A stretch of DNA of 64,000 nucleotides, from assembly GCF_964019715.1 (NCBI RefSeq), contig NZ_OZ026463.1, positions 1,004,220-1,068,219 of the forward strand. Direction: 5' to 3'. Source of the DNA: Spiroplasma endosymbiont of Lonchoptera lutea. Lineage in GTDB: Bacteria > Bacillota_I > Bacilli_A > Mycoplasmatales > Nriv7. The translations under genes were made by a program, and so were the position numbers. Below, piece by piece: positions 5,624 through 49,565 of the stretch (position 1 is its first letter; each line of letters starts with the position of its first letter). The notes under the pieces are model-generated. The model had not been told where the DNA came from and searched no databases. It saw only the letters and a list, made by a program, of their open reading frames with translations.

Positions 5624-6295
5624 CCTGAATTGTAAATATAAATGGGACAGTTTTTTAAAATAATTGTATTAAATCTATTGGTCTTTTATAAGATAATGAT
5701 TTTCTGGGTGTAGAATTAATTTGAAATGCTATAGAATTTAAGTCTTTTTGTTTATATGAAGATAAATCAGTAGATTTTGGTAAATATCTTCTTAAAATAC
5801 CATTATTGTTCTCATTTAAACCTCTTTGACAAGGTTTGCCGGCATCTGCAAAATAAATTTTAACATTACAATTTTTTTCAATTAATTTTCATTTACTAAA
5901 TTCTTTACCACGATCAAAAGTAATAGTTTTAATTGTTCCTGGTATTAATTTTGAAATAAATTTTATTATACTTTGTGTAATACTTTCTGCTTTATGATTT
6001 TTAGTTTTCAAAGGAATTGTGGTTTTTGATCATATATCAGCTAAAGTAATAATAGAACTTTTATGATCTTTACCAACGATAGTATCTCCCTCTAAATGGC
6101 CAAATTCTTGTATATTTTTAATATTTGGAATGATTAAATTTCTTTCATGAATAGATTTACAATTATTAATTCTGCCCCTAGTTTCTTTTTGTTTATGAGG
6201 TTTATTTTTGCCTTTTCTCAATAAATTTTTTTCATCAAAACCCATTCGATTTGTTTTAAACATGTTATATAAAGTTTTTGTTGAAATATTTTTTA
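5624..6295 (-). mobile_element. IS30-A, 3' fragment (minus orientation)
   Basis: Begins with the CCTGAATTG terminus and carries the C-terminal ~60% of the 314-aa transposase frame in reverse. It breaks off inside the gene exactly where the next IS30-A copy (plus orientation) starts. The missing 5' part is not found on the far side of the nest, so this is a deleted copy. Confidence 0.9.
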
Positions 6296-6850: not shown

Positions 6851-7652
6851 GTGAGGAAAATATGTAAGATTTTAGGTTTACTAAAATCAACATATTATTA
6901 TCAAACTAATAAATGCACCAAGTTTGATGTTAATAATTATGAACAAGAAGTTATCAGTGCATTTAATAAAAGTCGCAAGATTTATGGTGCTCGTAAAATT
7001 AAAGCTGTTTTAATAAGAAAAAATATCATTTTATCACGACGAAAAATCCGATTCATTATGATCAAAAATAATTTGGTTTCTAAATACACCAAGTTAAAAT
7101 ATTGTAATCATAAAAAAACAGTTAATAATGACGAAATTAATAATGTTTTAAATCCTCAATTTAATGACAAAAAACCAAATGAAGTTGTTGTTAGTGATTT
7201 AACATATGTTCAAGTTGGCACTAAATGACATTATATTTGTTTATTAATTGACTTGTTTAATCGCGAAGTAATTGGTTATAGTGCTGGACCAAATAAAACT
7301 GCTGAATTAGTTCAACAAGCTTTTCACAAGATAACAACGACCATTAAATAAAATAACTTTATTTCATACTGATCGTGGTAATGAGTTTAAAAATAAAATT
7401 ATTGATGAAATTTTAATAACCTTTAAAATTAAAAGATCATTAAGCTCCAAAGGATGCCCATATGATAATGCTGTTGCTGAAGCAACTTACAAAACCTTTA
7501 AAACCGAATTTATTAACGGTAAAAAATTTGCAAACTTAACACAACTAAAATGCGAACTATTTGATTTTGTTAATTGATATAACAATATTCGAATTCATGG
7601 CAGTTTAAATTATTTAACTCCCGTTGAATTTAGAAAATACCAGTCTACATAA
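6851..7652 (+). pseudogene. IS3-family OrfB, frameshifted (copy 1)
   Basis: DDE integrase-core transposase. The copy has the segment VVSDLTYVQVGTKWHYICLLID and later FHTDRGNEF and CPYDNAVAEATYKTFKTE. One extra A at about 7337 (AACAACG instead of AACACG in copies 2 and 3) shifts the frame after FHKIT, separating the first catalytic Asp from the second Asp and Glu. Probably dead. Confidence 0.9.
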
Positions 7653-8575
7653 AAAGTGTCCTAAAAAGGGTTGCCAATCCAAAGCAATTGATTATAGTAA
7701 ATCAACTGTACACAGAGTTTGTAAATTATTAAATCAAAACTTATTACCATTAGAAATATTGAATCAAGTTCAAAAAAATAAACAAAATGCAGGTAGAAAA
7801 TTAATAATTTTAACTTTAACAGAAATTAATACTATCAATCATTTGTTAATTACTAAAAATTATGCTCTTGATATAATTGCTGATTTTTTAAAGAAAAATA
7901 AAATAAAAAATATTTCAACAAAAACTTTATATAACATGTTTAAAACAAATCGAATGGGTTTTGATGAAAAAAATTTATTGAGAAAAGGCAAAAATAAACC
8001 TCATAAACAAAAAGAAACTAGGGGCAGAATTAATAATTGTAAATCTATTCATGAAAGAAATTTAATCATTCCAAATATTAAAAATATACAAGAATTTGGC
8101 CATTTAGAGGGAGATACTATCGTTGGTAAAGATCATAAAAGTTCTATTATTACTTTAGCTGATATATGATCAAAAACCACAATTCCTTTGAAAACTAAAA
8201 ATCATAAAGCAGAAAGTATTACACAAAGTATAATAAAATTTATTTCAAAATTAATACCAGGAACAATTAAAACTATTACTTTTGATCGTGGTAAAGAATT
8301 TAGTAAATGAAAATTAATTGAAAAAAATTGTAATGTTAAAATTTATTTTGCAGATGCCGGAAAACCTTGTCAAAGAGGTTTAAATGAGAACAATAATGGT
8401 ATTTTAAGAAGATATTTACCAAAATCTACTGATTTATCTTCATATAAACAAAAAGACTTAAATTCTATAGCATTTCAAATTAATTCTACACCCAGAAAAT
8501 CATTATCTTATAAAAGACCAATAGATTTAATACAATTATTTTAAAAAACTGTCCCATTTATATTTACAATTCAGG

Positions 8576-11884: not shown

Positions 11885-12945
11885 CCTGAATTGTAAATAT
11901 AAATGGGACAGTTTTTTAAAATAATTGTATTAAATCTATTGGTCTTTTATAAGATAATGATTTTCTGGGTGTAGAATTAATTTGAAATGCTATAGAATTT
12001 AAGTCTTTTTGTTTATATGAAGATAAATCAGTAGATTTTGGTAAATATCTTCTTAAAATACCATTATTGTTCTCATTTAAACCTCTTTGACAAGGTTTGC
12101 CGGCATCTGCAAAATAAATTTTAACATTACAATTTTTTTCAATTAATTTTCATTTACTAAATTCTTTACCACGATCAAAAGTAATAGTTTTAATTGTTCC
12201 TGGTATTAATTTTGAAATAAATTTTATTATACTTTGTGTAATACTTTCTGCTTTATGATTTTTAGTTTTCAAAGGAATTGTGGTTTTTGATCATATATCA
12301 GCTAAAGTAATAATAGAACTTTTATGATCTTTACCAACGATAATATCTCCCTCTAAATGGCCAAATTCTTGTATATTTTTAATATTTGGAATGATTAAAT
12401 TTCTTTCATGAATAGATTTACAATTATTAATTCTGCCCCTAGTTTCTTTTTGTTTATGAGGTTTATTTTTGCCTTTTCTCAATAAATTTTTTTCATCAAA
12501 ACCCATTCGATTTGTTTTAAACATGTTATATAAAGTTTTTGTTGAAATATTTTTTATTTTATTTTTCTTTAAAAAATCAGCAATTATATCAAGAGCATAA
12601 TTTTTAGTAATTAACAAATGATTGATAGTATTAATTTCTGTTAAAGTTAAAATTATTAATTTTCTACCTGCATTTTGTTTATTTTTTTGAACTTGATTCA
12701 ATATTTCTAATGGTAATAAGTTTTGATTTAATAATTTACAAACTCTGTGTACAGTTGATTTACTATAATCAATTGCTTTTGCTATTTTACGAATAGAAAA
12801 TCCATAACTTTTATATTCTTTTATTGCTATTATTGATTCAATAGTCAGATACTTATACATTGTGCTAATTCCTTTCTTTTCTTAATTATAGAATTAACAC
12901 AATTTGTTTTTTATATAAGTGTCCTTTTTAATTTTACATTTCAGG
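11885..12945 (-). mobile_element. IS30-A copy between tig/CIRCE and lon
   Basis: Complete 1061-bp element, imperfect terminal inverted repeats beginning CCTGAA, transposase co-oriented with lon. Flanking trinucleotides are TAT and TGT, a possible 3-bp target duplication with one mismatch. Confidence 0.93.
11916..12860 (-). CDS. IS30-family transposase (IS30-A)
   Basis: 314 aa with Trp at TGA codons. The N-terminal HTH reads SIRKIAKAIDYSKSTVHRVC; the DDE core has FGHLEGD, TITFDRGKEF and RGLNENNNGIL. This copy has Ile instead of Thr after the first catalytic Asp (GDIIVG). The AAGAAAGGAATT leader provides a Shine-Dalgarno. Confidence 0.93.
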
Positions 12946-24580: not shown

Positions 24581-25641
24581 CCTGAAATGTAAAATTAAAA
24601 AGGACACTTATATAAAAAACAAATTGTGTTAATTCTATAATTAAGAAAAGAAAGGAATTAGCACAATGTATAAGTATCTGACTATTGAATCAATAATAGC
24701 AATAAAAGAATATAAAAGTTATGGATTTTCTATTCGTAAAATAGCAAAAGCAATTGATTATAGTAAATCAACTGTACACAGAGTTTGTAAATTATTAAAT
24801 CAAAACTTATTACCATTAGAAATATTAAATCAAGTTCAAAAAAATAAACAAAATGCAGGTAGAAAATTAATAATTTTAACTTTAACAGAAATTAATACTA
24901 TCAATCATTTGTTAATTACTAAAAATTATGCTCTTGATATAATTGCTGATTTTTTAAAGAAAAATAAAATAAAAAATATTTCAACAAAAACTTTATATAA
25001 CATGTTTAAAACAAATCGAATGGGTTTTGATGAAAAAAATTTATTGAGAAAAGGCAAAAATAAACCTCATAAACAAAAAGAAACTAGGGGCAGAATTAAT
25101 AATTGTAAATCTATTCATGAAAGAAATTTAATCATTCCAAATATTAAAAATATACAAGAATTTGGCCATTTAGAGGGAGATACTATCGTTGGTAAAAATC
25201 ATAAAAGTTCTATTATTACTTTAGCTGATATATGATCAAAAACCACAATTCCTTTGAAAACTAAAAATCATAAAGCAGAAAGTATTACACAAAGTATAAT
25301 AAAATTTATTTCAAAATTAATACCAGGAACAATTAAAACTATTACTTTTGATCGTGGTAAAGAATTTAGTAAATGAAAATTAATTGAAAAAAATTGTAAT
25401 GTTAAAATTTATTTTGCAGATGCCGGCAAACCTTGTCAAAGAGGTTTAAATGAGAACAATAATGGTATTTTAAGAAGATATTTACCAAAATCTACTGATT
25501 TATCTTCATATAAACAAAAAGACTTAAATTCTATAGCATTTCAAATTAATTCTACACCCAAAAAATCATTATCTTATAAAAGACCAATAGATTTAATACA
25601 ATTATTTTAAAAAACTGTCCCATTTATATTTACAATTCAGG
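24581..25641 (+). mobile_element. IS30-A copy (complete)
   Basis: 1061 bp with both termini; abuts an inverted fragment on the left, chromosomal DNA (TTAATCAC) on the right. No target duplication visible. Confidence 0.93.
24666..25610 (+). CDS. IS30-family transposase (IS30-A)
   Basis: 314 aa, DDE residues intact. Differs from the consensus by VGKNHKSS (Asp to Asn) and TPKKSL (Arg to Lys). Confidence 0.92.
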
Positions 25642-31835: not shown

Positions 31836-32077
31836 TATAGTAAAATTGATACATTACCAATAAGATTTATTTATTTTAGGAGGAATTACTATTGAAACCA
31901 CGCTTATTATCAGGTATTACTAATACTGGAAAAATTACTATTGGTAATTATATTGGTATAGTAAAATTGATACATTACCAATAAGATTTATTTATTTTAG
32001 GAGGAATTACTATTGAAACCACGCTTATTATCAGGTATTACTAATACTGGAAAAATTACTATTGGTAATTATATTGG
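31836..32077 (+). repeat. 121-bp tandem duplication of the trpS 5' region
   Basis: Units 31836-31956 and 31957-32077 appear identical. Each carries the leader, the AGGAGG Shine-Dalgarno, the TTG start and the first 22 codons of trpS. In the upstream unit the frame runs on into the second unit's leader and stops after about 30 codons (NYIGIVKLIHYQ end). Confidence 0.93.
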
Positions 32078-33020
32078 TGTTATTCAAAATTTTATTAAAT
32101 TACAAGAAGAATATGATGTTTTTATCTTTGTTGCCAATTTGCATGCTATTGTCTCAATAAAAAATCATGACCACGATGTTCTTAAAAATAATATTCGTGA
32201 TTTAGTTGCCTTATATGTTGCTTGTGGTTTAGATCCCAATAAGATTACAATTTTTGCTCAATCTGACATTTTAGAGCATTGCCAATTAGGTCATATTCTG
32301 CTATGTCATACATCAATGGGAGAACTAAATCGCATGACACAATTTAAAGATAAAACACAATCATTTAAACAACATAATAATACTGAAACGATACCAACAG
32401 GATTATTTACTTATCCAGCATTAATGGCAGCTGATATTTTACTATATGATGCTGCTATTGTTCCTGTGGGAATTGATCAAAAGCAACATCTAGAATTAAC
32501 AAGAAATATTGCGATCAGAATGAATAATAAATATGGTAATATCTTTACAATTCCAGAACCATATATTGCTCCTAATGGTAAAAAAATAATGAACCTACAA
32601 AATCCCTTAAAAAAAATGTCAAAATCACATGAAAATCCTAAAACTTATATTTCTCTTTTAGATAATTTAAATGATGTTACCACAAAAATTAAAAGTGCCA
32701 TTACTGATAGTGAAAATAAAATTTTTTATGATGAAATTAATAAACCAGGAATTAGTAATCTTTTAAATATTTACTGTGCTTTTACAAATACTACAATTGA
32801 AGAAGCAACTAATGAGTTTTCTGACCAAAATTATGGTGCTTTTAAAGAAAAAATCGCTAAAGTTGTTTGCCTTCAACTTGAAATTATTCAAAGAAAATAT
32901 AACGAAATTATTGCTAATGATGAATGAAAACATTGATTATTGCAAGGAAAAGAAAAAGCAACAAAAATTGCTCACGAAAAATTGCAATTAATCCAAGATA
33001 AAATTGAGATTAATTACTAA
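32013..33020 (+). CDS. trpS: Tryptophanyl-tRNA synthetase
   Basis: 335 aa, class I synthetase. HIGH-equivalent TGKITIGNYIG (the ITIGNY form also seen in Bacillus), MSKSHE for KMSKS, plus PALMAADILLYDAAIVPVG and GIDQKQHLELTRNIA. The start codon is TTG with an AGGAGG site; no ATG lies closer. The 5' region is duplicated (31836-32077). In this genetic code TrpRS must charge tRNA(s) reading both UGG and UGA. Confidence 0.95.
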
Positions 33021-33963: not shown

Positions 33964-35025
33964 CCTGAAATGTAAAATTAAAAAGGACACTTATATAAAA
34001 AACAAATTGTGTTAATTCTATAATTAAGAAAAGAAAGGAATTAGCACAATGTATAAGTATCTGACTATTGAATCAATAATAGCAATAAAAGAATATAAAA
34101 GTTATGGATTTTCTATTCGTAAAATAGCAAAAGCAATTGATTATAGTAAATCAACTGTACACAGAGTTTGTAAATTATTAAATCAAAACTTATTACCATT
34201 AGAAATATTGAATCAAGTTCAAAAAAATAAACAAAATGCAGGTAGAAAATTAATAATTTTAACTTTAACAGAAATTAATACTATCAATCATTTGTTAATT
34301 ACTAAAAATTATGCTCTTGATATAATTGCTGATTTTTTAAAGAAAAATAAAATAAAAAATATTTCAACAAAAACTTTATATAACATGTTTAAAACAAATC
34401 GAATGGGTTTTGATGAAAAAAATTTATTGAGAAAAGGCAAAAATAAACCTCATAAACAAAAAGAAACTAGGGGCAGAATTAATAATTGTAAATCTATTCA
34501 TGAAAGAAATTTAATCATTCCAAATATTAAAAATATACAAGAATTTGGCCATTTAGAGGGAGATACTATCGTTGGTAAAGATCATAAAAGTTTCTATTAT
34601 TACTTTAGCTGATATATGATCAAAAACCACAATTCCTTTGAAAACTAAAAATCATAAAGCAGAAAGTATTACACAAAGTATAATAAAATTTATTTCAAAA
34701 TTAATACCAGAAACAATTAAAACTATTACTTTTGATCGTGGTAAAGAATTTAGTAAATGAAAATTAATTGAAAAAAATTGTAATGTTAAAATTTATTTTG
34801 CAGATGCCGGAAAACCTTGTCAAAGAGGTTTAAATGAGAACAATAATGGTATTTTAAGAAGATATTTACCAAAATCTACTGATTTATCTTCATATAAACA
34901 AAAAGACTTAAATTCTATAGCATTTCAAATTAATTCTACACCCAGAAAATCATTATCTTATAAAAAACCAATAGATTTAATACAATTATTTTAAAAAACT
35001 GTCCCATTTATATTTACAATTCAGG
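33964..35025 (+). mobile_element. IS30-A copy with 3-bp target duplication
   Basis: 1062 bp between two AAT trinucleotides (33961-33963 and 35026-35028), which defines the target duplication of this family here. One extra T at about 34592. Confidence 0.95.
34049..34994 (+). pseudogene. IS30-A transposase, frameshifted
   Basis: Reads normally to KDHKS, then an added T shifts the frame (ends FYYYFS), losing the second Asp and Glu of the DDE core. Confidence 0.92.
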
Positions 35026-35098: not shown

Positions 35099-37021
35099 TT
35101 ATTTTTTGTTTACTATTAATTCATTACATAAATTAATAAACTCATCAATCGTAACTGTTACTTGTTCTTCTTTACCATATTGACGATAAGTAATCTTTTT
35201 AGTAGCAATTTCTTTTTGACCGATAACAATTTGGAAAGGTATTTTTTTAGTTTGCGCAATACGAATTTTATAACCTAACCGTTCACTACTAGCATCAACA
35301 AATGACCGTAAATTATGGGTTTTAAATAGTTTTTCTAATTCATAACAATATGCTTGATGCTCTTCTTTAATAGGAATTAAAGTAATTTGTTTAGGACTTA
35401 ACCATAGTGGTAAAACTCCACCTGTTTGTTCTAATAAGACAGCTATAAAGCGTTCATAAGTGCCAATTAAACCACGATGAATAATAACAGGGCGAACTTC
35501 TTGTCCATTCTCATCTTGATAAGATAAATCAAATTTTTCTGGTAGTAAAAAGTCCAACTGAATCGTTGAAACCGTAATATCGTGTCCTAACACCGTTTTA
35601 ATTTGAATATCTAATTTCGGACCATAAAAAGCTGCTTCGCCAATCATTACAATATATTTAATTTTTAATTCATCTAAGGCTTCTTTTAAAACTTTTTCAG
35701 CTTTAATTCACATTTCATCATTATCATAATAATTTTTTTTATCTTGAAAATCTCTTAATGATAATGAATAGTAATCAACTTCAATATTTAATGCTAACAA
35801 TATTTCACTAATTAATTTAAATGTTGTTTGAAATTCAGTTTTTATTTGATCAAAACGACAAAAAATATGAGCATCAGTCAATTCCATTGCTCGAACGCGC
35901 TCTAAACCAGTTAAAGCGCCACTAGCTTCATAACGATATAATAATTCGTGCTCAGCAAATCGTAATGGCAAATCACGATAAGAGCGTAATTTATAACAAT
36001 AAATTAAACAATGATGTGGACACGACATCGGACGAAGCACAAGTTGCTCATTATTCAATGGCATAACCGGAAACATATTCTGTTGATAATGATCTCAATG
36101 ACCACTAGTACGATATAATTCTATTGCTCCCATTACTGGTGTTGCGACTTCTAAATAGTCATAAAAGAACTCTTGTGAACGCAAATACTCTTGTAATTGT
36201 TTTTTAAGAATCATTCCATTAGGCAATCAAATTGGTAATCCTTGACCTGCTAATGAATCAAACATAAAAATTTCTAAATCTTTGCCAATTTTTCGATGAT
36301 CTCGTTCTTTTCTTAAAGCAATTAATGCTAACAAGGTTGCTAATTTTTCTTGTGAAAAATGACAAACACCATAAATTCTTTGAATTTGCTTATTGTTAGC
36401 ATCATTATTTCAATAAACTCCAGCAAGTGATGAAAGCATAAAATTTTCAACAATTTTAGTATTATCTAAAGCAATAAAATTATTAATGAAAGAACTGTTA
36501 TCAACAGTATATATACCAACAATATCTTTAAGTGTTAAAAGTTTTTCTAAAAAATAAGGATTATTTTCATATAATCGTTGTAAATCGTGCGGTGATTTTA
36601 ACTCATATTTAATTTCTAAGTCTTTTTTAAGAAATTCTTGCATTTGCTTAGTAATAATCTCTAAATCTTGTTCTTTAATGCGGGTTTGAAAATCAAAATC
36701 AACAAAAAAACCTTCATCACCAACATTAATATTGGCAATTAATAAACCCTTTCAATTAGTTTGTAATGTTTTTGCTAAAACAATAGCTGCTGAATAATTA
36801 AGTACTTTTAATGCCTCATCTAAATCTTTTGTAATTATCTCTAATATAATATCATTTTCTAAAACATAAGTTTTAATATCTTTTCATTCATTATTAACTT
36901 TAACAGCAATAATATTTTCTTGTCAATTAGCATCAATACTTGTTAAAACATCACTAAGCATTATTCCTAATGGATACGATTTATTTTCATTATTAATTTT
37001 TACAGTAACAATTTGTTCCAT
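35099..37021 (-). CDS. thrS: Threonyl-tRNA synthetase with degenerate editing domain
   Basis: 640 aa with TGA-encoded Trp. TGS domain (1-65), editing-type domain, class II core ([12 protein letters not shown] with zinc Cys, [39 protein letters not shown]) and anticodon-binding domain ([12 protein letters not shown]). In normal bacterial ThrRS the editing domain has HxxxH in a HSAAH context; here residues 76-80 are YSAAI. The second motif, CxxxH in a C-G-P-H context, is also absent (VGIYTVDNS in that region). Post-transfer editing of Ser-tRNA(Thr) is therefore probably lost. The start with AAAGG ten bases upstream was preferred over an ATG 9 nt earlier. Confidence 0.95.
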
Positions 37022-37045
37022 TGCCGACATATCCTTTCTAGCGAA

Positions 37046-37092: not shown

Positions 37093-38529
37093 TTATTTTA
37101 TTTGTAATTTTCTCATTTCATTACCATTAACAATTAAAACTTGTTCATTAGTTTTAGCACCATATTTTCTAGCAATATTATTTAATAAATTATCATCATT
37201 AATTACTTTATTAATATCCATAACTAATTCTGGATAAACACCATACCAAATCCCAAAACTATTTCTAATTCTTTCATCAGTAACTAATGGGATTAATGTA
37301 CTGCGAACACGAGCATTAGATAAAGTTTTAGTTAATAATTGATGATCACTATCATCTAAAACAATTACTTGATGAATTCGTTTTTGCTTTTGAATTTTTT
37401 CACCAAGAACCTCTTTACCAACTTGATAAACAAAATCTTTAAAAGGTGAAGTTGATCATTTAATAAATCTTTCTAAATAACCTTCATATCAAAAATGAAT
37501 TTCTGCTTTTCTAACGACTCTCGTCATTGCTTCAATTGATTTTTCAGGATACTCACCATTAGCTGTTTCGCCAGATAACATTGTTGTATCCACACCTAAA
37601 TCAACTGCTCAATAAATATCTGATACTTCAGCTCTTGTTGGCAAAGGATTAGATAACATTGATTCTAACATTTGCGTAGCGACAATTACTGGCACCATTG
37701 CTTTATTACATTTACGAATAACATGTTTTTGAATTAAAGGCACCTCAGCATAAGGCACATCAACACCTAAATCACCACGAGCAACCATAATACCATCACT
37801 ATTAGCAATAATTTCATCAATATTATCAACAGCATATCGTGATTCAATTTTGGCAATAATTTTAATATCAGCACCACCATTTTCATCTAACAATTGACGC
37901 ATCTCTTGTAAATCTTTAGCATCATGAACAAAAGAAGCAGCTACATAATCTACTTTTTGCTCACATCCAAAAATAAGATCGGCACGATCTTTGTCAGAAA
38001 TAAAAGGTAATGACAGTTTAATTCCCGAAACAATAATCGCACGATGATTTTTGACAAGATGAGTATTAACAGCGCGACAAATAATTGACTTATCATCATC
38101 TTTATTATTAATTCCTAAAACAATTAACTGTAACTTACCATCATCTACTAATAATCTTTGTTCAACTTGAATATCATTAACAAGATTTTCATAATTAATT
38201 GAAAATTCCGTTTCCGTACCTTCAATTTCTTTATTCGTATAAACAATAACCCTACTATCTTTTCTTATTAACGCCTCACCATCTTTAAAAGAGTGAGTTC
38301 TAATTTCTGGACCTTTAGTGTCTAATATTAGTGATAGTGGTCTTTGTACTTGTTGAATAATAGATTTAGCAAACTCAACACGCTTACCATGTTCTTCAAA
38401 ATCACCGTGAGAAAAGTTTAAACGATATACATTTGCTCCCTTTTGTGCTAAACGAAGCATCAAATCTCTGGTTTCACTAGCCGGACCAATTGTCGTAATG
38501 GTTTTTACTCTTTTATTTATAAAAAGCAT
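37093..38529 (-). CDS. pyk: Pyruvate kinase
   Basis: 478 aa. Last step of glycolysis (PEP + ADP to pyruvate + ATP), the main ATP source of fermentative mollicutes. [53 protein letters not shown] (catalytic Lys-Glu), [12 protein letters not shown] and ATQMLESM are all present, then a C-terminal allosteric-type domain. Two TGA-Trp in the last third. The extra C-terminal PEP-utiliser domain of some Bacilli is absent. Confidence 0.97.
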
Positions 38530-38991: not shown

Positions 38992-39632
38992 CCTGAATTG
39001 TAAATATAAATGGGACAGTTTTTTAAAATAATTGTATTAAATCTATTGGTCTTTTATAAGATAATGATTTTCTGGGTGTAGAATTAATTTGAAATGCTAT
39101 AGAATTTAAGTCTTTTTGTTTATATGAAGATAAATCAGTAGATTTTGGTAAATATCTTCTTAAAATACCATTATTGTTCTCATTTAAACCTCTTTGACAA
39201 GGTTTGCCGGCATCTGCAAAATAAATTTTAACATTACAATTTTTTTCAATTAATTTTCATTTACTAAATTCTTTACCACGATCAAAAGTAATAGTTTTAA
39301 TTGTTCCTGGTATTAATTTTAAAATAAATTTTATTATACTTTGTGTAATACTTTCTGCTTTATGATTTTTAGTTTTCAAAGGAATTGTGGTTTTTGATCA
39401 TATATCAGCTAAAGTAATAATAGAACTTTTATGATCTTTACCAACGATAGTATCTCCCTCTAAATGGCCAAATTCTTGTATATTTTTAATATTTGGAATG
39501 ATTAAATTTCTTTCATGAATAGATTTACAATTATTAATTCTGCCCCTAGTTTCTTTTTGTTTATGAGGTTTATTTTTGCCTTTTCTCAATAAATTTTTTT
39601 CATCAAAACCCATTCGATTTGTTTTAAAGATG
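38992..39632 (-). mobile_element. IS30-A, right part of a split copy
   Basis: Right terminus and C-terminal ~60% of the transposase in reverse; ends at GTTTTAAAGATG where a second IS30-A begins. The remaining left part is at 40694-41075. About 40 bp of the middle is missing, so the inner insertion was accompanied by a deletion. Confidence 0.92.
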
Positions 39633-40693
39633 CCTGAATTGTAAATATAAATGGGACAGTTTTTTAAAATAATTGTATTAAATCTATTGGTCTTTTATAA
39701 GATAATGATTTTCTGGGTGTAGAATTAATTTGAAATGTTATAGAATTTAAGTCTTTTTGTTTATATGAAGATAAATCAGTAGATTTTGGTAAATATCTTC
39801 TTAAAATACCATTATTGTTCTCATTTAAACCTCTTTGACAAGGTTTTCCGGCATCTGCAAAATAAATTTTAACATTACAATTTTTTTCAATTAATTTTCA
39901 TTTACTAAATTCTTTACCACGATCAAAAGTAATAGTTTTAATTGTTCCTGGTATTAATTTTGAAATAAATTTTATTATACTTTGTGTAATACTTTCTGCT
40001 TTATGATTTTTAGTTTTCAAAGGAATTGTGGTTTTTGATCATATATCAGCTAAAGTAATAATAGAACTTTTATGATCTTTACCAACGATAGTATCTCCCT
40101 CTAAATGGCCAAATTCTTGTATATTTTTAATATTTGGAATGATTAAATTTCTTTCATGAATAGATTTACAATTATTAATTCTGCCCCTAGTTTCTTTTTG
40201 TTTATGAGGTTTATTTTTGCCTTTTCTCAATAAATTTTTTTCATCAAAACCCATTCGATTTGTTTTAAACATGTTATATAAAGTTTTTGTTGAAATATTT
40301 TTTATTTTATTTTTCTTTAAAAAATCAGCAATTATATCAAGAGCATAATTTTTAGTAATTAACAAATGATTGATAGTATTAATTTCTGTTAAAGTTAAAA
40401 TTATTAATTTTCTACCTGCATTTTGTTTATTTTTTTGAACTTGATTCAATATTTCTAATGGTAATAAGTTTTGATTTAATAATTTACAAACTCTGTGTAC
40501 AGTTGATTTACTATAATCAATTGCTTTTGCTATTTTACGAATAGAAAATCCATAACTTTTATATTCTTTTATTGCTATTATTGATTCAATAGTCAGATAC
40601 TTATACATTGTGCTAATTCCTTTCTTTTCTTAATTATAGAATTAACACAATTTGTTTTTTATATAAGTGTCCTTTTTAATTTTACATTTCAGG
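39633..40693 (-). mobile_element. IS30-A copy nested inside another IS30-A
   Basis: Complete 1061-bp element in the same orientation as the host copy. No clear target duplication because of the associated deletion. Confidence 0.93.
39664..40608 (-). CDS. IS30-family transposase (IS30-A)
   Basis: 314 aa, consensus sequence with DDE residues; in-frame TGA as Trp at LADIW and FSKW. Confidence 0.92.
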
Positions 40694-44335: not shown

Positions 44336-45396
44336 CCTGAAATGTAAAATTAAAAAGGACACTTATATAAAAAACAAATTGTGTTAATTCTATAATTAAG
44401 AAAAGAAAGGAATTAGCACAATGTATAAGTATCTGACTATTGAATCAATAATAGCAATAAAAGAATATAAAAGTTATGGATTTTCTATTCGTAAAATAGC
44501 AAAAGCAATTGATTATAGTAAATCAACTGTACACAGAGTTTGTAAATTATTAAATCAAAACTTATTACCATTAGAAATATTGAATCAAGTTCAAAAAAAT
44601 AAACAAAATGCAGGTAGAAAATTAATAATTTTAACTTTAACAGAAATTAATACTATCAATCATTTGTTAATTACTAAAAATTATGCTCTTGATATAATTG
44701 CTGATTTTTTAAAGAAAAATAAAATAAAAAATATTTCAACAAAAACTTTATATAACATGTTTAAAACAAATCGAATGGGTTTTGATGAAAAAAATTTATT
44801 GAGAAAAGGCAAAAATAAACCTCATAAACAAAAAGAAACTAGGGGCAGAATTAATAATTGTAAATCTATTCATGAAAGAAATTTAATCATTCCAAATATT
44901 AAAAATATACAAGAATTTGGCCATTTAGAGGGAGATACTATCGTTGGTAAAGATCATAAAAGTTCTATTATTACTTTAGCTGATATATGATCAAAAACCA
45001 CAATTCCTTTGAAAACTAAAAATCATAAAGCAGAAAGTATTACACAAAGTATAATAAAATTTATTTCAAAATTAATACCAGGAACAATTAAAACTATTAC
45101 TTTTGATCGTGGTAAAGAATTTAGTAAATGAAAATTAATTGAAAAAAATTGTAATGTTAAAATTTATTTTGCAGATGCCGGAAAACCTTGTCAAAGAGGT
45201 TTAAATGAGAACAATAATGGTATTTTAAGAAGATATTTACCAAAATCTACTGATTTATCTTCATATAAACAAAAAGACTTAAATTCTATAGCATTTCAAA
45301 TTAATTCTACACCCAGAAAATCATTATCTTATAAAAGACCAATAGATTTAATACAATTATTTTAAAAAACTGTCCCATTTATATTTACAATTCAGG
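44336..45396 (+). mobile_element. IS30-A copy heading a tandem array
   Basis: Complete 1061-bp copy in the plectrovirus block; followed directly by two 682-bp repeats of its own right part. Confidence 0.94.
44421..45365 (+). CDS. IS30-family transposase (IS30-A)
   Basis: 314 aa consensus copy with intact HTH and DDE residues; likely active. Confidence 0.93.
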
Positions 45397-46078
45397 AAAA
45401 ATAAAATAAAAAATATTTCAACAAAAACTTTATATAACATGTTTAAAACAAATCGAATGGGTTTTGATGAAAAAAATTTATTGAGAAAAGGCAAAAATAA
45501 ACCTCATAAACAAAAAGAAACTAGGGGCAGAATTAATAATTGTAAATCTATTCATGAAAGAAATTTAATCATTCCAAATATTAAAAATATACAAGAATTT
45601 GGCCATTTAGAGGGAGATACTATCGTTGGTAAAGATCATAAAAGTTCTATTATTACTTTAGCTGATATATGATCAAAAACCACAATTCCTTTAAAAACTA
45701 AAAATCATAAAGCAGAAAGTATTACACAAAGTATAATAAAATTTATTTCAAAATTAATACCAGGAACAATTAAAACTATTACTTTTGATCGTGGTAAAGA
45801 ATTTAGTAAATTAAAATTAATTGAAAAAAATTGTAATGTTAAAATTTATTTTGCAGATGCCGGAAAACCTTGTCAAAGAGGTTTAAATGAGAACAATAAT
45901 GGTATTTTAAGAAGATATTTACCAAAATCTACTGATTTATCTTCATATAAACAAAAAGACTTAAATTCTATAGCATTTCAAATTAATTCTACACCCAGAA
46001 AATCATTATCTTATAAAAGACCAATAGATTTAATACAATTATTTTAAAAAACTGTCCCATTTATATTTACAATTCAGG
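45397..46078 (+). repeat. IS30-A 3' tandem repeat, unit 1 (682 bp)
   Basis: Begins AAAAATAAAATAAAAAATAT, inside the transposase gene, and runs to the right terminus. An ATG at 45439 opens 77 codons up to the first TGA; with TGA as Trp the frame continues to the normal stop. One TGA-Trp (FSKW) has become TTA-Leu. Confidence 0.93.
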
Positions 46079-46760
46079 AAAAATAAAATAAAAAATATTT
46101 CAACAAAAACTTTATATAACATGTTTAAAACAAATCGAATGGGTTTTGATGAAAAAAATTTATTGAGAAAAGGCAAAAATAAACCTCATAAACAAAAAGA
46201 AACTAGGGGCAGAATTAATAATTGTAAATCTATTCATGAAAGAAATTTAATCATTCCAAATATTAAAAATATACAAGAATTTGGCCATTTAGAGGGAGAT
46301 ACTATCGTTGGTAAAGATCATAAAAGTTCTATTATTACTTTAGCTGATATATGATCAAAAACCACAATTCCTTTGAAAACTAAAAATCATAAAGCAGAAA
46401 GTATTACACAAAGTATAATAAAATTTATTTCAAAATTAATACCAGGAACAATTAAAACTATTACTTTTGATCGTGGTAAAGAATTTAGTAAATGAAAATT
46501 AATTGAAAAAAATTGTAATGTTAAAATTTATTTTGCAGATGCCGGCAAACCTTGTCAAAGAGGTTTAAATAAGAACAATAATGGTATTTTAAGAAGATAT
46601 TTACCAAAATCTACTGATTTATCTTCATATAAACAAAAAGACTTAAATTCTATAGCATTTCAAATTAATTCTACACCCAGAAAATCATTATCTTATAAAA
46701 GACCAATAGATTTAATACAATTATTTTAAAAAACTGTCCCATTTATATTTACAATTCAGG
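46079..46760 (+). repeat. IS30-A 3' tandem repeat, unit 2 (682 bp)
   Basis: Same boundaries as unit 1. It carries a G-to-A change at about 46571 that turns the catalytic Glu of LNENNNG into Lys (LNKNNNG). Confidence 0.93.
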
Positions 46761-47272: not shown

Positions 47273-48333
47273 CCTGAATTGTAAATATAAATGGGACAGT
47301 TTTTTAAAATAATTGTATTAAATCTATTGGTCTTTTATAAGATAATGATTTTCTGGGTGTAGAATTAATTTGAAATGCTATAGAATTTAAGTCTTTTTGT
47401 TTATATGAAGATAAATCAGTAGATTTTGGTAAATATCTTCTTAAAATACCATTATTGTTCTCATTTAAACCTCTTTGACAAGGTTTGCCGGCATCTGCAA
47501 AATAAATTTTAACATTACAATTTTTTTCAATTAATTTTCATTTACTAAATTCTTTACCACGATCAAAAGTAATAGTTTTAATTGTTCCTGGTATTAATTT
47601 TGAAATAAATTTTATTATACTTTGTGTAATACTTTCTGCTTTATGATTTTTAGTTTTCAAAGGAATTGTGGTTTTTGATCATATATCAGCTAAAGTAATA
47701 ATAGAACTTTTATGATCTTTACCAACGATAGTATCTCCCTCTAAATGGCCAAATTCTTGTATATTTTTAATATTTGGAATGATTAAATTTCTTTCATGAA
47801 TAGATTTACAATTATTAATTCTGCCCCTAGTTTCTTTTTGTTTATGAGGTTTATTTTTGCCTTTTCTCAATAAATTTTTTTCATCAAAACCCATTCGATT
47901 TGTTTTAAACATGTTATATAAAGTTTTTGTTGAAATATTTTTTATTTTATTTTTCTTTAAAAAATCAGCAATTATATCAAGAGCATAATTTTTAGTAATT
48001 AACAAATGATTGATAGTATTAATTTCTGTTAAAGTTAAAATTATTAATTTTCTACCTGCATTTTGTTTATTTTTTTGAACTTGATTCAATATTTCTAATG
48101 GTAATAAGTTTTGATTTAATAATTTACAAACTCTGTGTACAGTTGATTTACTATAATCAATTGCTTTTGCTATTTTACGAATAGAAAATCCATAACTTTT
48201 ATATTCTTTTATTGCTATTATTGATTCAATAGTCAGATACTTATACATTGTGCTAATTCCTTTCTTTTCTTAATTATAGAATTAACACAATTTGTTTTTT
48301 ATATAAGTGTCCTTTTTAATTTTACATTTCAGG
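47273..48333 (-). mobile_element. IS30-A copy downstream of rpmB
   Basis: Complete 1061 bp; no matching trinucleotides at the flanks (TAC on the left, TTT on the right). Confidence 0.93.
47304..48248 (-). CDS. IS30-family transposase (IS30-A)
   Basis: 314 aa consensus copy, DDE intact; transcribed toward rpmB. Confidence 0.92.
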
Positions 48334-48504: not shown

Positions 48505-49565
48505 CCTGAATTGTAAATATAAATGGGACAGTTTTTTAAAATAATTGTATTAAATCTATTGGTCTTTTATAAGATAATGATTTTCTGGGTGTAGAATTAA
48601 TTTGAAATGCTATAGAATTTAAGTCTTTTTGTTTATATGAAGATAAATCAGTAGATTTTGGTAAATATCTTCTTAAAATACCATTATTGTTCTCATTTAA
48701 ACCTCTTTGACAAGGTTTGCCGGCATCTGCAAAATAAATTTTAACATTACAATTTTTTTCAATTAATTTTCATTTACTAAATTCTTTACCACGATCAAAA
48801 GTAATAGTTTTAATTGTTCCTGGTATTAATTTTGAAATAAATTTTATTATACTTTGTGTAATACTTTCTGCTTTATGATTTTTAGTTTTCAAAGGAATTG
48901 TGGTTTTTGATCATATATCAGCTAAAGTAATAATAGAACTTTTATGATCTTTACCAACGATAGTATCTCCCTCTAAATGGCCAAATTCTTGTATATTTTT
49001 AATATTTGGAATGATTAAATTTCTTTCATGAATAGATTTACAATTATTAATTCTGCCCCTAGTTTCTTTTTGTTTATGAGGTTTATTTTTGCCTTTTCTC
49101 AATAAATTTTTTTCATCAAAACCCATTCGATTTGTTTTAAACATGTTATATAAAGTTTTTGTTGAAATATTTTTTATTTTATTTTTCTTTAAAAAATCAG
49201 CAATTATATCAAGAGCATAATTTTTAGTAATTAACAAATGATTGATAGTATTAATTTCTGTTAAAGTTAAAATTATTAATTTTCTACCTGCATTTTGTTT
49301 ATTTTTTTGAACTTGATTCAATATTTCTAATGGTAATAAGTTTTGATTTAATAATTTACAAACTCTGTGTACAGTTGATTTACTATAATCAATTGCTTTT
49401 GCTATTTTACGAATAGAAAATCCATAACTTTTATATTCTTTTATTGCTATTATTGATTCAATAGTCAGATACTTATACATTGTGCTAATTCCTTTCTTTT
49501 CTTAATTATAGAATTAACACAATTTGTTTTTTATATAAGTGTCCTTTTTAATTTTACATTTCAGG
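48505..49565 (-). mobile_element. IS30-A copy inside thiN
   Basis: Complete 1061 bp flanked by the 3-bp duplication ATA (48502-48504 and 49566-49568). Confidence 0.95.
48536..49480 (-). CDS. IS30-family transposase (IS30-A)
   Basis: 314 aa consensus copy, DDE intact. Confidence 0.92.

Follow-up and report, generated by a model that had tools for sequence, protein, structure and literature searches.

The sole threonyl-tRNA synthetase (ThrRS) of the Spiroplasma endosymbiont of Lonchoptera lutea, a relative of the Nebria symbiont, is very probably a catalytically intact enzyme that keeps the fold of its N2 domain while having lost all four of the residues that hydrolyze Ser-tRNA(Thr). Modeling indicates that an active site has been lost inside a retained domain, and not that a motif has been misaligned. 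The loss of the editing site is real and is of a type already known from Mycoplasma, where degenerate ThrRS editing domains have been reviewed (PMC7373986, PMC4014445). What is new is a map of the loss across the order, together with a joint pattern of ThrRS and PheRS degeneration.

The gene lies in a 64,000-nucleotide stretch of DNA (the window, positions 1004220-1068219 of a single contig) with a GC content of about 26%, taken from a 1.33 Mb one-contig genome in which TGA encodes Trp. Under genetic code 4, thrS (35099..37021, minus strand) reads without interruption through 640 codons, seven of which are TGA. This is the only copy, as a second full-length ThrRS is absent from the genome, and the named enzyme that best matches its product, at 96%, comes from the Spiroplasma endosymbiont of Nebria riversi. 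A pyruvate kinase gene (37093-38529, minus strand) is located immediately upstream. An IS30-type transposase copy with a broken frame lies 3' of thrS on the opposite strand, followed by a tryptophanyl-tRNA synthetase gene (32013-33020, plus strand); these neighbors were named by inspecting their translations. The start of thrS is uncertain. The sequence at 37019-37030 reads ATG TCG GCA ATG, which offers an upstream option beginning MSAMEQ. In the Nebria symbiont, the start given in the earlier note does not coincide with an ATG, so translation may really begin at the ATG that lies three codons before it, in which case the residue numbering would shift by 3.

The enzyme has the layout of a bacterial-type ThrRS, with all parts encoded on the minus strand. 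A divergent N1 (TGS-like) domain (residues 1-64; 36830..37021) is followed by N2 (residues 65-222; 36356..36829), by a class II catalytic core (residues 240-530; 35432..36304; Pfam 6.7e-37), and by an HGTP_anticodon anticodon-binding domain (residues 531-640; 35102..35431; Pfam 1.3e-21). N1 and N2 are recognized by structure match, their sequence scores alone (TGS E=0.15, SAD E=0.22) falling below Pfam cut-offs. With its N2 fold present in the model, the protein is not a minimal ThrRS of the yeast mitochondrial type, which has no N2. Alignment places a C-H-H zinc site at Cys334 (36020..36022), His385 (35867..35869), and His515 (35477..35479), equivalent to E. coli C334, H385, and H511. These ligands are among the 48 core residues that are invariant across a reference set of 42 enzymes (E. 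coli and 41 others from outside the order), every one of which is present in the window ThrRS.

The residues required for editing are gone. In the E. coli enzyme, H73, H77, C182, and H186 are all critical for this activity, with kcat for editing dropping approximately 7000-fold in H73A, approximately 70-fold in H186A, and more than 500-fold in C182A/S (PMC4041444). All four are invariant in the reference set, and thus their joint loss is not a matter of chance. Alignments to 1nyq and 1qf6, as well as a 146-sequence MAFFT alignment, show them replaced as H73 to Y76, H77 to I80, C182 to N180, and H186 to A184. The sequence YSAAI (residues 76-80; 36782..36796) occupies the position of HSAAH (HSxAH in bacteria generally), and NNFIA (residues 180-184; 36470..36484) that of CxGxH, so that FINNFIA stands where the partner motif DLCRGxH would be expected. 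The earlier note on this DNA had reported YSAAI at residues 76-80, a CxxxH partner missing from its expected place, and an intact synthetic core, and on each point it was correct. A ThrRS with none of the four editing residues and an undamaged core has the makeup of a naturally editing-deficient Mollicute enzyme. Overall, 11 of the 26 invariant N2 residues are present. Those lost include the four catalytic residues and several neighbors (G95, P96, Y103, Y104, D180, G184), and those kept include G101, F102, D105, G203, Y205, R217, Y219, and G220. Five genomes represent the genus, and each shows the same erasure.

The distribution of the loss was scored in 103 ThrRS sequences from 102 genomes of the order (one genome carries two) and in 43 sequences from outside that set. 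Every enzyme sampled from the symbiont's own family (f1, 5/5) and from two sister families (f5, 9/9; f6, 36/36) is erased. We take f1, f5, and f6 to be the Spiroplasma, Mesoplasma/Entomoplasma, and Mycoides groups, respectively. Among these 50 enzymes, 46 have none of the four residues and four have one, and Tyr occupies position 73 in all of f1, all of f5, and 22 of the 35 counted members of f6 (36/49 counted). The ThrRSs of f4, f9, and all but one of the 21 f8 members are intact, f3 is mixed, and part or all of N2 is gone in f11 and f7. The 43 sequences from outside the set are all intact, except for one (L032) that is the Nebria symbiont record itself. The loss is thus not peculiar to the window genome; every sampled member of the Spiroplasma/Mycoplasmataceae clade has it, apparently by inheritance. 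The proposal in the earlier note that the Mycoplasma phenomenon extends to this lineage was right as far as it went, but it understated the case, given that the entire sampled clade is erased and that PheRS motifs are degenerate as well.

A tree of 107 enzymes built from the core alone unites f1, f5, and f6 in one clade (SH-aLRT 86), and the H73Y replacement shared by most erased enzymes is an indication of one old loss. A more careful core tree of 44 enzymes leaves the branching order of f1, f5, f6, and f8 open, for which reason a single loss is not proven, although parsimony needs just one change. A single old loss before the f1/f5/f6 split is the most economical reading of these sequences, and it was probably accompanied by the loss of PheRS editing.

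Some exceptional enzymes were encountered in the course of this survey. L196, L197, and L206 (f11), L199 (f7), and L201 and L205 (f3) have shed their N-terminal editing region wholly or for the most part and consist of a core and an anticodon domain, much like yeast mitochondrial ThrRS. Within genus g29 of f3, L202 (genome G119) and L204 (G145) are full-length, carry all four editing residues, and share 31-32% identity with the window ThrRS, while their genus-mates L184 and L185 have degenerate enzymes. It is possible that an editing-dead ThrRS was replaced in this genus by an acquired, editing-competent one. Also, genome G123 (f6, genus g13) carries two ThrRS genes, L148 and L149, one of which has a shortened, erased N2 and groups with the ThrRS of G099 (L155).

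Once its active site was lost, N2 evolved faster without becoming free of constraint. The median ratio of N2 to core pairwise distance is 4.82 for the erased enzymes of f1, f5, and f6, versus 1.34 for order members that are intact and 0.92 for the outgroups, intact Bacilli among them. Comparisons inside the genus give a dN/dS of 0.495 for N2 against 0.087 for the core. The N2 value is inflated by a dS that is lower there than in the core, but dN alone is approximately 2.5 times higher in N2. These faster distances and the raised dN show that selection on N2 is relaxed, yet the retention of its length and fold shows that some constraint persists. The probable reason for keeping N2 is a role in holding the enzyme or the tRNA.

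An enzyme altered in this way would be predicted, on the basis of E. coli enzymology, to be unable to deacylate Ser-tRNA(Thr), some of which would then escape and deliver Ser to Thr codons at a low level. A trivial alternative is that the motif was overlooked through misalignment, frameshift, or sequencing error, in favor of which the N2 domain shares just 22-34% identity with relatives outside the genus. However, an AlphaFold model of residues 1-242 built from erased sequences only (pLDDT 90.5) superposes on the isolated editing domain 1tje (TM 0.82/0.88), which, along with 1qf6 from E. coli and 1nyq from S. aureus, makes up its best PDB matches. The full-length model built from a mixed alignment (pLDDT 89.7) agrees with 1nyq at a TM of 0.93. 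Because the erased-only model adopts the fold of the ThrRS editing module, it supports the placement of the four positions made by sequence, and this model and the alignment to the E. coli and S. aureus enzymes together indicate that the His and Cys ligands are absent rather than located elsewhere. Sequencing error is ruled out because the five congeneric genomes share the erasure, and the 640 open codons leave no frameshift to invoke. With the five genomes and the structure model in agreement, explanations of this kind have been rejected and retain practically no credibility. Loss of post-transfer editing, as the earlier note had anticipated, is instead strongly supported by the removal of all four catalytic residues from a domain that retains its fold, and no known family of free-standing hydrolases was matched.

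Clearance of Ser-tRNA(Thr) by an unrecognized hydrolase acting in trans is very unlikely. Our search covered known families only, and the assembly, although 99.33% complete, is missing pheST, which leaves some room for such a protein to have been overlooked. Nevertheless, the search for SAD domains (PF07973) in the symbiont's own genome recovered AlaRS alone, with no free-standing ThrRS editing domain, and YbaK/ProX (PF04073), DTD (PF02580), and the archaeal ThrRS editing domain (PF08915) had no match in it. Thus, neither a second editing-competent ThrRS nor a trans-editing factor of the known families searched was found. Furthermore, a published survey noted no stand-alone YbaK, ProX, or AlaX in any Mollicute, and found a DTD gene among them in Acholeplasma laidlawii only (PMC4014445). 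A more serious alternative, though still one we consider doubtful, is that the core preserves fidelity, either by editing before transfer in a tRNA-dependent way or by rejecting Ser more strongly, with the result that Ser rarely appears at Thr codons despite the loss of post-transfer editing. There is precedent in the yeast mitochondrial ThrRS, which has no N2 and edits before transfer in a tRNA-dependent manner, probably in its core (PMC4267643), and the full complement of invariant core residues in the window ThrRS would be compatible with such an activity. Its amino-acid pocket residues L381, T479, G513, and T517, however, are also present in editing-competent relatives, and no compensating change peculiar to the erased enzymes was seen at the pocket positions checked. 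Mycoplasma species with degenerate, inactive ThrRS editing domains also show misincorporation in their proteomes (PMC7373986). Because core-based pre-transfer editing or better Ser rejection is possible, we only infer the presence of Ser at Thr codons, and predict that Ser-for-Thr misincorporation probably occurs sometimes.

The persistence of a dead N2 raises the related prospect that the domain has been reused for tRNA binding, assembly, or contact with a new partner and is under selection for that role, a suggestion that we offer tentatively and regard as somewhat improbable. It would be consistent with the conservation of N2 length and fold throughout f1, f5, and f6, with a dN/dS below 1, and with the retention of invariant residues such as G203, Y205, R217, Y219, and G220. 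Foldseek, moreover, detects the N1-N2 fold in a mitoribosomal large-subunit protein (matches such as 5ool_7). Such a role is harder to reconcile with a mean N2 identity of just 28% within f6, which suggests weak constraint, and f11, f7, and parts of f3 have dropped their N-terminal region largely or entirely, which implies that N2 is dispensable within the order.

Other proofreading synthetases were assessed by their motifs. In LeuRS of the window genome, the TTRxDT motif and the Asp conserved for editing are present, and AlaRS keeps HSGTH and CGGTH; thus editing by both enzymes looks intact. By contrast, the editing motifs of PheRS-beta (the His of GQPLH, MGG(D/E), and IEGA) are degenerate in all 29 f1, f5, and f6 genomes checked, which comprise four sister genomes of the genus (f1) and 25 from f5 and f6 (loci L245-L274, which also include f4). 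The f4 PheRS-beta (L271) keeps these motifs in part, with its His and Glu retained. Neither pheS nor pheT was found in the window assembly, where a sister PheRS-beta and the B3/4 domain both went unmatched and the PheS family gave only weak matches. A 9.5 kb region of a sister genome (G028:C1:944000-953500) that carries rsmH, mraZ, pheST, and their neighbors has 154 bases that match the window assembly, and the pheST region is present in all four sister genomes. Since PheRS is essential, this absence is probably a gap or misassembly. Mycoplasma genomes have been described as losing at most two of three editing activities, those of ThrRS, PheRS, and LeuRS (PMC7373986). The lineage fits this limit in part: in the window genome ThrRS is erased and LeuRS looks intact, and in the sister genomes PheRS is degenerate.

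There are several known systems against which the window ThrRS can be compared. Its domain order and fold are the same as those seen in E. coli 1qf6, S. aureus 1nyq, and the editing domain 1tje, but the E. coli and S. aureus enzymes have an editing-competent N2. Zhou and colleagues reportedly found, in work published in 2016 in J Biol Chem 291:21208, that M. capricolum ThrRS, which has N1 and a degenerate N2, is defective in editing, whereas M. mobile ThrRS, which has no N1, is said to edit. With M. capricolum placed in f6, in line with its established taxonomy, that pattern matches those of f6 and f8. The M. capricolum enzyme resembles the window ThrRS in having a degenerate N2 beside N1; the window ThrRS comes from the Spiroplasma ixodetis side and has its own replacements (Y, I, N, A). 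Mutations in the editing domains of Mycoplasma LeuRS, PheRS, and ThrRS were reportedly described by Li and colleagues in PNAS in 2011. As in those cases, the synthetic site is intact, the editing residues are lost, and stand-alone editing proteins of the known families searched are missing. The reviews, however, treat Mycoplasma, while the present map spans the order and places ThrRS and PheRS losses in one clade. Yeast mitochondrial ThrRS (MST1) likewise functions without post-transfer editing, but there N2 is wholly absent rather than stripped of its catalytic residues. No discussion of ThrRS editing in Spiroplasma specifically was found in the literature searched.

A broader reading, speculative and on balance improbable, is that the ancestor of the Spiroplasma-Mycoides clade lost proofreading by ThrRS and PheRS once, long ago, and so committed a whole radiation of insect symbionts and parasites to a proteome that is statistical at codons for Thr and Phe, with the dead N2 being kept for a new, noncatalytic role. 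If the predicted loss of editing holds, heritable symbionts of insects and parasites of animals across a large clade would decode Thr and Phe without proofreading, and would do so as a fixed ancestral condition rather than through scattered recent decay. One order holds intact, erased-but-folded, and domain-lost ThrRSs, and thus offers a natural series for studying the nonediting roles of an editing domain.

The window also contains many near-identical copies and fragments of one IS30-type transposase, some of which are frame-broken or truncated. They are located at 5655-6263, 7624-8544, 11916-12860, 24666-25610, 34049-34994 (the copy adjacent to thrS), 39023-39613, 39664-40608, 44421-46729, 47304-48248, and 48536-49480, and their number and near-identity within 64 kb are a sign of recent expansion.
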